DNA of 37,006 nucleotides, taken from NCBI RefSeq assembly GCF_002259645.1, contig NZ_MWWV01000024.1:1-37006 (forward strand). Reading direction: 5' to 3'. Below are positions 32,910 through 37,006 of the stretch, piece after piece. Under the pieces are notes generated by a model. It was given only the letters and a program-made list of their open reading frames with translations, did no database searches and had not been told where the DNA came from. This DNA is from Bifidobacterium tissieri (GTDB lineage Bacteria; Actinomycetota; Actinomycetes; Actinomycetales; Bifidobacteriaceae). Made by a program: the position numbers and the translations under genes. Position 1 is the first letter of the stretch; the number at the start of each line of letters is the position of its first letter.

Positions 32910-33383
32910 ATGACTACACGAATGGAGATGACTCCACGGCGACAACGGGCAGATAACGATGCCTCCAAGCCGTGGAGTTTTCGTTTGCCCTCGTGGGGTC
33001 GCATCCTTGTCAGTGCGGCCTCGGGCGCGATCGTCGGCTTCGTCGGCGCCGCCACCCATCGCATGGGCGTCCAGTGGAGCATCCCCTACGGGCTGGTGCT
33101 GTCGTTTCTGCTGCTCGGCATATCCACATGGTCGGCGCGTGCCCGATCCGGCAGCGTCGGCGTGGGATTTCACCTCATCGCCTCCGGTGCGGTGACCATG
33201 CTGATCCTGCAGACGTCCACCCAATCCCGTGCGATGTTGATTTTCGGGTACGTTTCGGATTCCTATACGTTGCTCATGCAGAAGGCGGGCATCATCTGGA
33301 TGCTGGGCATGGTGGCGCTTCAGGTGTTCATGCTCGTGCTGCCGCAACGTTGGTTCGACGTGTCCGACAGAAGGAATCACTGA
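32910..33383 (+). CDS. Small integral membrane protein of unknown function
   Basis: 157 residues. A basic N-terminus (about 28 residues) is followed by four hydrophobic segments at about 31-48, 58-74, 85-101 and 124-144. I do not recognise a motif. The ATG 32910 lacks a ribosome-binding site; a leaderless message is possible. It sits four bases before pheA, so it could be co-transcribed with the aromatic amino acid genes. Confidence 0.7.
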   Translation: MTTRMEMTPRRQRADNDASKPWSFRLPSWGRILVSAASGAIVGFVGAATHRMGVQWSIPYGLVLSFLLLGISTWSARARSGSVGVGFHLIASGAVTMLILQTSTQSRAMLIFGYVSDSYTLLMQKAGIIWMLGMVALQVFMLVLPQRWFDVSDRRNH

Positions 33384-33386
33384 TTT

Positions 33387-34346
33387 ATGACCGTGTCATT
33401 GCATTATCTTGGGCCTCAGGGCTCGTTCACCCATCAGGCGGCGTCCGCGGCCGCAGAGCTCATCCCGGATGGCGGGGAATGCATTGCCGAACCGAACGTG
33501 ACCGCCATCTTCAACGCCGTGGCCAACGGCGACGGTTGGGGAGTGGTCGCGTGGGAAAGCAACATCGAAGGCTATGTGGTGCCGAATCTGGATGCACTGA
33601 TCGACGCCGAGGATGTGGCGGGATTCGCCCGGGTGAGCGTCGACGTCGCATTCGATGCGCTGGTCCGTCCCGGACACGGTGACCTGACCGTGGTCCGAGC
33701 GCATCCGCACGGGCTGGCACAATGCTCGAAATTCATTGTCGAACATGGACTGACCTCCGAGCCGTCATCGTCCAACGCCGCCGCATGCCGCGACATCGCC
33801 TCCGACGAGGTGGCGCTTGGCCCATCCATCTGTGCCGGACTCTACGGTCTGAATGTGTTGTGCAAGGACGTTCAGGACTTCGACGGAGCGGTTACCGACT
33901 TCCTTGTGCTGGCACCGCGCGAGCAGGCACGAGAGCAGCTCGCGCAGGCCGAATCCAACGGGGTCGTCGAATTCGAATCCATCGTCGCGTTCATTCCGTT
34001 GAGTACCGGACCGGGCGTACTGGCCGATCTGCTCGATGTGATTCGCGATGCGGGACTGAACATGACCAGTTTCATTTCACGGCCGATCAAAGGTCATGCC
34101 GGCACATACAGCTTCATCGCCACGCTCGATGCGGCACCTTGGCAGCCGCAGTTCAAAACGGTGCTCGGCACCGTGGCTGCGCATGGGGATTGGGTGAAGA
34201 CGCTGGCCGTATACCCGCGTAGGGAACGGCCGAATCCGCCGGTGAGTGCGTGGATGCTGCCCAAGGGCGGCGTACGACTGGACTCCACGGACGTATCCGG
34301 TGTGCGATTCGAACCGGACGATGACAGGGAGCTGCTATGGGCGTGA
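33387..34346 (+). CDS. pheA: Prephenate dehydratase
   Basis: 319 residues. It converts prephenate to phenylpyruvate, the committed step to phenylalanine. GPQGSFTHQAA (9-19), ESNIEGYVVPNLD (57-69) and SSSNAAACRD (127-136) are in place. The catalytic TRF motif reads TDF (T170, D171, F172). A C-terminal ACT domain (about 205-285; GLNMTSFISRP in place of the usual ESRP) would bind phenylalanine for feedback control. No chorismate mutase domain is fused. It overlaps tyrA by 10 bases. Confidence 0.9.
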   Translation: MTVSLHYLGPQGSFTHQAASAAAELIPDGGECIAEPNVTAIFNAVANGDGWGVVAWESNIEGYVVPNLDALIDAEDVAGFARVSVDVAFDALVRPGHGDLTVVRAHPHGLAQCSKFIVEHGLTSEPSSSNAAACRDIASDEVALGPSICAGLYGLNVLCKDVQDFDGAVTDFLVLAPREQAREQLAQAESNGVVEFESIVAFIPLSTGPGVLADLLDVIRDAGLNMTSFISRPIKGHAGTYSFIATLDAAPWQPQFKTVLGTVAAHGDWVKTLAVYPRRERPNPPVSAWMLPKGGVRLDSTDVSGVRFEPDDDRELLWA

Positions 34347-35419
34347 ACATGACACCAGAGCGACCCGAGGCGCAGGTGATCGCCATCGCCGGACTCGGAC
34401 TGATCGGCGGATCGCTCGCCCGGCGACTGACGGAACGCGGTCGTCGTGTGATCGCATGGAACCATCGCCCGGCCCCATACGATCGTGCGCGTGCCGCCGG
34501 CATCGAATGCGTGGACGACGTGGCGGAACTGGCTCGCGCGGTTCCGGACGTGCTTGTGCTGTGTACGCCGCTCAAGGCCATGCCGGATGTGCTGCGACAG
34601 CTGGCACCGGTGATGGACCCGCATACCGTGCTCGCCGATGTGGGTAGCGTCAAGGGGCAGGTGCGTGACGAGGTGAAGGCTGTCGGGCTTGATGATTGCT
34701 ATGTCGGCGCCCATCCGATGGCAGGCAATGAGTTCTCCGGCTATGCCGCATCCGATCCGTCACTGTACGACGACGCCCTATGGGCGGTGACCTTCGACGA
34801 GCGGACGTCCTATGAGCGGCTGCTCGTCGTGGTCGATATGATCTGCGAGGGAGTGGGCGACCGCATCATCGTGATCGACGATGACACGCATGACCGTGCC
34901 GCCGCGATGATCAGCCACATGCCGCATGTGGTGTCCACGGCATTGGCGAACGAACTGACCGAAATGCCGGAACGCAACATCGCTCAGGCGCTGGCCGCCG
35001 GATGCTGGCGCGACATGACGCGCGTCGCCCTCACCGATCCCGACCGGACCCGTGCGATGGTGGAGGAGGATGCCGCGAATGTGGCCCGGTTGCTGCACCA
35101 CATGGGCGAACGTCTGGAATCCATGGCGGCCCTGCTCGAATCCGGTGACGATACTGCGCTCGCGCAGGTTCGGGAGTTCTTCGCCGTGGCACATCCCTAC
35201 CGCGAATACAAGGCCCGTGAACGTGCGGGAGTCGAACACGAGTCGGTGACCGTGCGGATTGACGGCGATGATGAGAACGGTACCGCAGGGGCCACGGAGT
35301 CCGGGCGTTCCACATGGCGTGACCGGCTGCTTGCATCCGCCCGGCGGGGCGAACACATCACGCATATGACGGATCGGAACACCGCCATCGCCGAGATTCG
35401 CACGGCACTGGTCAGTTGA
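34337..35419 (+). CDS. tyrA: Prephenate dehydrogenase
   Basis: 360 residues from ATG 34337, with AGGGAG upstream inside pheA. It makes 4-hydroxyphenylpyruvate, leading to tyrosine. The NAD-binding GLGLIGGS (19-26), DVGSVKG and GAHPMAGNEFSG (125-135, with H126) are present. The dimerising helical domain follows. The gene overlaps the convergent TetR gene by eight bases at its 3' end, so no terminator can lie between. Confidence 0.92.
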   Translation: MGVNMTPERPEAQVIAIAGLGLIGGSLARRLTERGRRVIAWNHRPAPYDRARAAGIECVDDVAELARAVPDVLVLCTPLKAMPDVLRQLAPVMDPHTVLADVGSVKGQVRDEVKAVGLDDCYVGAHPMAGNEFSGYAASDPSLYDDALWAVTFDERTSYERLLVVVDMICEGVGDRIIVIDDDTHDRAAAMISHMPHVVSTALANELTEMPERNIAQALAAGCWRDMTRVALTDPDRTRAMVEEDAANVARLLHHMGERLESMAALLESGDDTALAQVREFFAVAHPYREYKARERAGVEHESVTVRIDGDDENGTAGATESGRSTWRDRLLASARRGEHITHMTDRNTAIAEIRTALVS

Positions 35420-36023
35420 GCAGATCGACCGGAGCCAGCGTGCGTGCACGATCGATGATCGTCGCGATGGTCTCCGGCGGTTCATCGCAGCCGCGTTTGA
35501 GCCACAGCCAGACGATGGCGGTGAGCGACGCGGCGAGCATCTCCCGGACGTACACGGAGGGAATGTCGTCGCGGTTCGGTTTCTTGCCCACCTTCTCCGC
35601 CTCGATGAGCAGCAGCTCGGTGATGATGTCCTTGGTGCGGTTGTACAGCTGCATGTCGTTGCCGCTGTGCGAGATGGCGTCGAAGAACGCGAAGTCGTTC
35701 TTGATGTACCGTAGTCCGTCAAGAAGCGCGTTGTAGGAGATGAGCTGTCCGTCAGCGCCCGTCTGTTGCGGACCGGTCGTCTGCCGTGGGAAGGACGGCC
35801 CTGGAGTGAGCATGATCTGCGTCAGATCGCTCATGGCGTTGGAGAGCAGTTGCTGACGCAGATCGAACTTGTCGGTGTAATGCGTGTAGAACGTGCCTCG
35901 ATTGATATGCGCCTCACGGGCGAGATCGCTGACGGTCATGGCGTCGAAACCCTTGGCGTTAGTCAACGTGATGAACGCCTCTTTGATGGCCCCCTCCGTG
36001 CGGGTGTTTCTGTGCTGTATCAT
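35412..36023 (-). CDS. TetR-family transcriptional regulator
   Basis: 203 residues with GGAG five bases before ATG. The helix-turn-helix AMTVSDLAREAHINRGTFYTHY is at about residues 28-49. The C-terminal part resembles the TetR_C group of the first TetR in the window, but the sequences differ. It has no divergent target gene; its 3' end overlaps tyrA. A TATAAA in the minus-strand upstream region could be its -10. Target unknown. Confidence 0.87.
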   Translation of the reverse strand: MIQHRNTRTEGAIKEAFITLTNAKGFDAMTVSDLAREAHINRGTFYTHYTDKFDLRQQLLSNAMSDLTQIMLTPGPSFPRQTTGPQQTGADGQLISYNALLDGLRYIKNDFAFFDAISHSGNDMQLYNRTKDIITELLLIEAEKVGKKPNRDDIPSVYVREMLAASLTAIVWLWLKRGCDEPPETIATIIDRARTLAPVDLLN

Positions 36024-36152
36024 GGCGGCTCCTTGATGGATTCATGGTCATGGGATTCGTGATCCGGATCGTGGATTTCGATCGGATATCGAACATGATC
36101 AACACGGTGTTTATAGCGATACAAGCACAGGCATTTGACGAATCATGTCCGC

Positions 36153-36407
36153 TCATGGCCGGAGGAACGTCGGTCTCTCCGGAATGGGCTTGAGTCGTAC
36201 GATGCTCATGGCGTCGATGGTGACGATCTGGGCCTTTCTGCGGCCGTTGGCGGATTCGTCGCGCAGCATCGTCAGCGTCGTGCCATCCCAGCCGGTGACA
36301 TGACCCACATAATCCCGGTACTTCTCCCTTCCATCGGCCTCGTCGACACCCATGGTCGTGCGTACCACGATGCGTGCCCCCAGCGGAATGCGTTTCGGTA
36401 AGATCAT
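36153..36407 (-). CDS. Small SH3/Sm-like beta-barrel protein, unknown function
   Basis: 84 residues. The pattern GARIVVRTT, YRDYVGHVTGWDGTTLTMLRD, VTIDAMSIVRLKPIPERP is like the small SH3-type domain at the N-terminus of actinobacterial GNAT proteins, here standing alone. No ribosome-binding site is seen; TAGACT ends seven bases before the ATG, which fits a leaderless message. The CRP-like site at 36466 is about 60 bp upstream. Confidence 0.65.
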   Translation of the reverse strand: MILPKRIPLGARIVVRTTMGVDEADGREKYRDYVGHVTGWDGTTLTMLRDESANGRRKAQIVTIDAMSIVRLKPIPERPTFLRP

Positions 36408-36465
36408 GATGCCGAGTCTACTGTTCGCCGAACTGGTCGAAGCGTATGGTTTCAGACGTCTGTAT

Positions 36466-36481
36466 TGTGATTTACGTCACA
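36466..36481. promoter_or_regulatory. CRP/GlxR-type operator TGTGATTTACGTCACA
   Basis: TGTGA-N6-TCACA, perfect in both halves, and it also fits the actinobacterial GlxR form TGTGANNTANNTCACA. It lies between the minus-strand SH3-like gene and a plus-strand short reading frame, so it could control either. Whether this organism has a CRP-family regulator cannot be seen here. Confidence 0.6.
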
Positions 36482-36534
36482 TCAATCGGTTGCCATAGGT
36501 TTCATTGCGGTGCCGAAACCCCTGCAGGAGTAAC

Positions 36535-36597
36535 GTGAATATCGTTGGTGGGAAGCCCTGCCTCCGGATGTCGTTTCCCGGATGCAAACGGGGATGA
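36535..36597 (+). CDS. Candidate 20-residue peptide (short ORF)
   Basis: GTG 36535 is preceded by AGGAG four bases upstream and opens MNIVGGKPCLRMSFPGCKRG, stop TGA 36595-36597. Two cysteines and four basic residues, no hydrophobic core. A perfect terminator begins two bases after the stop. No relative comes to mind; there is no plus-strand gene after it, so it is not a leader peptide for a nearby gene. It might equally be part of a small RNA. Confidence 0.4.
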   Translation: MNIVGGKPCLRMSFPGCKRG

Positions 36598-36598
36598 G

Positions 36599-36640
36599 AA
36601 AACCTCTTCGCAGGCAATGATGCGCGAAGAGGTTTTTCTT
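36599..36640. terminator. Bidirectional intrinsic terminator
   Basis: AAAACCTCTTCGC (36599-36611) and GCGAAGAGGTTTT (36624-36636) form a perfect 13-bp stem with a 12-nt loop. TTTTTCTTT follows on the plus strand and TTTTC on the minus strand. It ends a plus-strand transcript from the 36.45-36.6 kb region and probably the minus-strand transcript from the right edge. Confidence 0.85.
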
Positions 36641-36669
36641 TGGCCTATAACCCTAACCGGACTCCATAA

Positions 36670-36795
36670 TCACCACAGTCCGATGATCTTCCACCATCCC
36701 ATGCCCACGGTCAGCCATACCGCCACGGTGACGATGCCGCACAGGAACCCGATCCGGGGGCTATAGGAACTTTTGTGGTGCTTTAGAGTCCTTTC
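36670..36795 (-). other. Open frame for a second membrane segment, -1 frame of the 66-residue gene
   Basis: From codons overlapping the stop of the 66-residue gene, a 41-codon frame reads into SPRIGFLCGIVTVAVWLTVG, then MGWWKIIGLW and stop at 36670. The hydrophobic run is a good membrane helix. There is no ATG, GTG or TTG before it, so it would need a -1 frameshift, a rare start codon, or be a broken 3' end of the upstream gene. The terminator follows 30 bases later. Confidence 0.35.
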
Positions 36796-36983
36796 TCACG
36801 GTTTGTGTGCCGATTGTGGCGGGTGTGGCGTCCGCGGCGTTTGATGAGCGGGTGGATGGCGTGCAGGATGAACATCAGGGCCCCGGCCGCGACGAGTGCC
36901 GGCCGGCTTCCGGCGCCAATGGCGTCGATGAGTTCGAATACGACTTGGATGAGTCCCAGCAGAGTTGCGATGTTTTGGATCAT
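36783..36983 (-). CDS. Small membrane protein (may extend past the window)
   Basis: 66 residues from ATG 36983. An amphipathic N-terminal helix (IQNIATLLGLIQVVFELIDA) is followed by a membrane segment at about residues 29-45 and a very basic, His/Arg-rich tail (KRRGRHTRHNRHTNREK). I do not recognise it. The frame is open to the window edge, so the true start could lie outside. Confidence 0.55.
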   Translation of the reverse strand: MIQNIATLLGLIQVVFELIDAIGAGSRPALVAAGALMFILHAIHPLIKRRGRHTRHNRHTNREKGL

Positions 36984-37006
36984 GCCGACGTCTATGCGGA
37001 TTGGCC

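Follow-up and report, generated by a model that had tools for sequence, protein, structure and literature searches.

Spot 42 and CyaR of Escherichia coli are small RNAs under the control of CRP. In bifidobacteria, small RNAs have been described in B. animalis subsp. lactis (PMC4338058) and B. breve (PMC5746004), and in corynebacteria GlxR and small RNAs have been treated as predicted co-regulators (PMC8247434), according to the accessible portions of these reports. The window analysed here, a stretch of 37,006 nucleotides of Bifidobacterium tissieri, carries near its right end a compact unit for which a first-pass annotation had proposed either a regulated peptide or a small RNA. Of these, the small RNA is supported by an operator, a -10 box, a predicted RNA start and a hairpin retained in seven genomes, with a fixed distance between operator and -10 box; the peptide is not supported. 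The unit is probably a CRP-activated small RNA gene on the plus strand, with a non-coding product of about 95 nt. A limited literature search returned no earlier description of the unit and no literature on the neighbouring DUF6725 gene.

Layout of the unit and its short reading frame

The features of the locus, in window coordinates, are as follows.

35412-36023, minus strand: TetR-type gene, left of the unit
36153-36407, minus strand: divergent DUF6725 gene; -10-like box AGTCTA (TAGACT on the minus strand) at 36415-36420, 7 bases ahead of the ATG
36466-36481, unstranded: CRP/GlxR-like operator TGTGATTTACGTCACA, centre about 70 bases ahead of the predicted RNA start
36482-36494, plus strand: conserved block TCAATCGGTTGCC (TCAAACGTTTGCC in G002), the first 12 bases of which have an identity of 0.79
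36531-36536, plus strand: -10 box TAACGT (TAGCGT or TAGCCT in other relatives), with a good -35 box absent
36535-36597, plus strand: 20-codon GTG frame with TGA, unconserved and judged to be no gene
36541-36545, plus strand: transcript start predicted from the -10 box
36547-36556, plus strand: RNA 5' element GGTGGGAAGC, of the form GGYGGGAAGC, in 7/7 genomes
36577-36592, plus strand: middle hairpin CCCG...CGGG, clade-dependent in sequence and no better than shuffles
36599-36641, unstranded: 13-bp terminator hairpin with T run, common to the small RNA (plus) and the convergent permease side (minus)
36673-36759, minus strand: DASS permease remnant (residues 462-490 of the G001 protein), beside the unit

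The perfect TGTGA-N6-TCACA site of the first-pass annotation was read directly at 36466-36481, and the letters of the 20-codon frame, with AGGAG at 36526-36530 four bases ahead of the GTG at 36535, were as it had described. The terminator was confirmed as a perfect 13-bp hairpin, with stem arms AAAACCTCTTCGC (36599-36611) and GCGAAGAGGTTTT (36624-36636) fully paired around a loop of 12 bases; the stem lies one base past the stop codon rather than the two bases given earlier. Next comes TTTTTCTTT at 36633-36641.

That the unit encodes a peptide of 20 residues, two of them cysteines, under CRP regulation is highly improbable. The spacing of AGGAG and GTG and the position of the terminator right past the stop would suit such a gene, but both AGGAG and GTG coincide with the -10 box region upstream of the predicted start, the GTG overlapping TAACGT itself. 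The frame is also disrupted in close relatives, a finding that the first-pass annotation had itself named as counting against a peptide. Counted from the GTG position, it runs to 20 codons in G0, 99 in G1, at least 200 in G8, 16 in G6, 16 in G5, 46 in G4 and at least 200 in G2, and in G4 and G2 the GTG is replaced by CTG, which leaves 2/7 genomes without a start codon. The peptide was rejected on these varying lengths and missing start codons. Its two cysteines are not retained among the relatives, and frames beginning within the predicted RNA vary in length as well.

Conservation and promoter geometry

Conservation was analysed in a genus sample of nine genomes, the window genome and eight others. 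The unit was identified in seven of them (the window genome, G001, G008, G002, G004, G005 and G006); a plain DNA search detected it in 4/9, including the window genome, and the remainder were recognised by reading the equivalent intergenic place. G003 and G007 have neither the unit nor the permease found beside it in relatives; their DUF6725 gene is present and their malic enzyme gene lies elsewhere.

The window holds one perfect operator, whereas 100 shuffles averaged 0.07. Since 7/100 shuffles carried at least one perfect operator, the operator by itself is weak evidence, and the decisive evidence is conservation. The operator is preserved in all seven genomes, with a single base changed in the right half of the G004 copy. 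Mean pairwise identity across the seven reached 0.92 in the operator, 0.79 in the 12 bases that follow it and 0.83 in the -10 region; outside the elements it fell to 0.38-0.53 in the spacers, which one inserted base in G004 lowers slightly, and to 0.30 upstream. The element GGYGGGAAGC and the 5' arm of the hairpin, CCTCTTCGC, were each found in 7/7 genomes, and the unit is conserved outside any conserved reading frame. The hairpin is present in all seven, with a plus-strand T run in 3/7 and without one in 4/7. The 5' arm CCTCTTCGC is identical even where the T run is missing, a constancy beyond what termination alone would require.

The -10 box, which follows the pattern TAxCxT throughout, lies 57 bases from the operator centre in six of the seven genomes and 58 in the remaining one. 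Measured in the other direction, from the operator to the -10-like box of DUF6725, the distances are 53, 54, 41, 41, 74 and 48 bases; G008, which lacks AGTCTA, reads AGTGTA. The combination of a variable spacing to DUF6725 and a fixed one on the plus strand indicates that the geometry is preserved towards the plus strand only. The conservation of the elements, their fixed geometry, the absence of a conserved frame and the presence of one CRP-type protein in the genome were observed directly.

In the mechanism we propose, a CRP/GlxR-type protein would bind the operator, some 70 bases ahead of the predicted start (a distance that fits class I activation by E. coli CRP), and would recruit RNA polymerase to the TAxCxT promoter. 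The lack of a good -35 box is as expected of an activator-dependent promoter. The RNA would begin a few bases ahead of GGYGGGAAGC and stop at the hairpin (36599-36636), and it would most likely act in trans to bring metabolism into line with carbon status. Transcription, CRP activation, both RNA ends and any function in trans are what we infer from the conserved elements. In the accessible part of the B. breve report, the promoter consensus is TATAAT and TTGACA with 17 bp between them, and stem-loops that fall outside the class of rho-independent terminators are considered as points of termination or pausing (PMC5746004). A consensus scan of 33000-37006 listed no promoter, nor did it list the hairpin at 36599-36636, the loop limit of the scan being 8 bases.

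The structure of the predicted RNA was compared with dinucleotide shuffles. The full RNA folded better than these, with z values of -2.0 to -3.6; with the last hairpin removed, the values ranged from -1.1 to +0.7, no better than shuffles, and the structural case therefore rests on the hairpin. In the RNAalifold consensus, one of 13 pairs was changed on both sides and another was broken in 2/7 genomes.

The distribution of the unit appears to be narrow and clade-specific. Among 189 family genomes, a model (R1) recovered the seven unit genomes, from which it was built, at E values of 2.3e-25 to 1.9e-20, and the next best match was at 1.4e-4. At E <= 1, 68/189 matched, seven of them strongly, and there was no strong match outside the own GTDB genus in these 189 genomes. 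An order-level search of 396 genomes returned the window genome alone at E <= 1e-4. Thirty R1 loci (L042-L071) were collected, 23 of them outside the seven unit genomes (18 of the 23 were read by eye, and the stretch for the short locus L055 was misplaced); GGYGGGAAGC occurred in one of these 23, and the 100 bases examined there contained no operator. The weak match in G003 (E 0.00176) has no operator in the 90 bases ahead of it. The unit was present at two of 14 named Bifidobacterium DUF6725 loci, those of B. callimiconis and B. vansinderenii; the other 12 have no perfect operator in 450 bases upstream and no GGYGGGAAGC in the locus.

Neighbouring genes and competing explanations

According to the first-pass annotation, no annotated gene accounted for the stronger plus-strand tail of the terminator. 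For the hairpin there is such a gene: in the relatives, a convergent minus-strand permease ends about 30-90 bases from it. In G001 the gene next to the unit is a convergent minus-strand anion symporter of the DASS family, beyond which lies a divergent malic enzyme gene, and the positions of the two genes in the other five relatives agree with this arrangement. Of the eight other genomes, six have the unit together with the permease and two have neither.

The window genome has an intact unit but a broken permease. The remnant lies about 33 bases from the window hairpin, and a second piece, residues 436-476, was located at C10:613-741 between a fragment of an IS1249-type transposase and the malic enzyme gene. 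The two places share a 20-base end in inverted orientation (window 36762-36781 and L087 630-649). The arrangement across window 36673-37006 and L087 1-741 (G000:C10) suggests that the permease was broken by an insertion sequence together with the loss of residues 1-435. The malic enzyme of this genome passes the NCBIfam cut-off of PRK13529, but under the malolactic model its score is 707.7 against 850. On the minus strand, a 66-aa frame that includes a hydrophobic stretch (36783-36983) matched nothing in Pfam or NCBIfam and may be part of the inserted element, or no gene; the contig ends at 37006, right of the unit.

Two explanations that draw on the neighbouring genes were weighed against a trans-acting small RNA. 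The operator might serve the divergent minus-strand DUF6725 gene, alone or alongside the plus-strand promoter. It does lie between both start regions, 41-74 bases from the -10-like box of DUF6725, and in G003, which lacks the unit, a one-mismatch operator TGTGATGAATTTCGCA (L030) stands 67 bases upstream of DUF6725. On account of this site a role of the operator at DUF6725 is conceivable. The spacing, in contrast to the fixed plus-strand distance, is variable and not a multiple of the helical turn, which disfavours an operator devoted solely to DUF6725. The best operator in G007 has three mismatches, and an operator with fewer than two mismatches in 450 bases upstream occurred only at the two unit-bearing loci of the 14 named ones. 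A DUF6725 operator would also leave the -10 box, GGYGGGAAGC and the hairpin without explanation. We regard this alternative as unlikely and the small RNA gene as the best explanation. The DUF6725 ATG, 7 bases past the TAGACT box, would fit a leaderless mRNA.

The hairpin could alternatively be the terminator of the permease, with the plus-strand promoter producing an RNA that is antisense to the permease mRNA through overlap or read-through and does not act in trans. In 6/6 relatives that have a permease it lies convergent to the unit, and both genomes without the unit lack it; read-through is conceivable in the 4/7 genomes that lack the plus-strand T run. Yet with a working terminator the RNA would stop 30-90 bases short of the permease stop, and GGYGGGAAGC is conserved though distant from any overlap. 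The survival of an intact unit beside a broken permease also speaks against antisense action and points to a role or targets of the small RNA beyond the permease, although the loss may be recent. Antisense control of the permease is thus rather unlikely, marginally more so than the DUF6725 alternative. A wider interpretation, that the unit, which goes together with a dicarboxylate-type permease locus, represents a new clade-specific family of CRP-activated, trans-acting bifidobacterial small RNAs linking carbon status to organic-acid use, with targets elsewhere, is put forward tentatively.

Candidate regulator, target searches and known systems

A single cNMP-binding protein was found in the window genome, 239 aa long (G000:C7) and carrying the domains cNMP_binding and HTH_Crp_2. 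The best match of this CRP-type protein among solved structures was 7ets_A, a Crp/Fnr family regulator (5.6e-99). The class III cyclase family PF00211 had no match in the same genome, the control matching in 5/14 genomes. If the mechanism holds, the unit would be a direct output for the bifidobacterial CRP/GlxR-like protein.

Further sites for the regulator were sought across the genome. The pattern TGTGATTNNNNTCACA has three perfect copies genome-wide and nine entries at up to one mismatch, one place being counted on both strands (control, 2). With one mismatch or none, the operator combined with the TTGC block pattern occurred in 8/189 family genomes, six of which are unit genomes (control, 1). 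Two operator-like sites 61 bases apart (L038 and L039, G000:C23:197849-197925) lie upstream of a plus-strand frame of at least 438 aa, a possible further CRP target. The conserved block at 36482-36494, CAAACGTTTG in G002, resembles a LacI-family half-operator and may be the site of a second regulator.

Target searches combined pairing with the neighbouring genes and a search for the complement of the 5' element; no recurrent small RNA target was found by either. Against the permease start (5/6 loci), the fractions of locus windows that paired with the 5' part of the RNA as well or better were 0.38, 0.70, 0.96, 0.97 and 0.12, and against the malic enzyme start (2/6 loci) they were 0.60 and 0.18; neither gave a signal. 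The complement GCTTCCCRCC occurred 132 times in the seven unit genomes, seven of these being the unit itself, compared with 88 for the reversed-pattern control, and 16 times in two genomes without the unit (control, 21). Of the 125 sites outside the unit, 100 were examined; these comprised 14 of the 22 sites of G008 and none of the 17 of G006. Ten groups of sites recurred in at least two genomes. The three groups that recurred in at least four all lie within long sense frames, and their recurrence is explained by the protein conservation of these frames; one recurring pair (G002 and G004) sits at a start codon.

At the gathering scores of Rfam 15, there were no matches in the window or in the loci of 4/6 relatives; the best sub-threshold match in 36400-36760 was RsaE, at 17.7 bits against 79 and on the minus strand. 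If transcribed as predicted, the unit would provide bifidobacteria with a family of regulatory small RNAs whose candidate regulator is named and whose promoter is defined, present in seven genomes. The bifidobacterial RNAs described for B. animalis subsp. lactis (PMC4338058) and B. breve (PMC5746004) are intergenic transcription units with a promoter and a terminator, as is predicted for the unit, as far as the accessible parts of the two reports go. The table in the B. breve report holds housekeeping RNAs and riboswitches (PMC5746004), and the 11 RNAs of B. animalis (PMC4338058) were set beside the unit by description alone. Mcr11 of Mycobacterium tuberculosis is a small RNA of an actinobacterium with a link to central metabolism; its regulator, in the portion of the report consulted, is AbmR and not CRP, and its sequence was compared with the unit through Rfam alone (PMC12101431). 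With Spot 42 and CyaR the unit would share the plan of a short intergenic RNA gene that has a CRP-type operator before its promoter and a hairpin terminator, and it would similarly connect carbon status to post-transcriptional control, although no sequence relation to either was found through Rfam at gathering scores.
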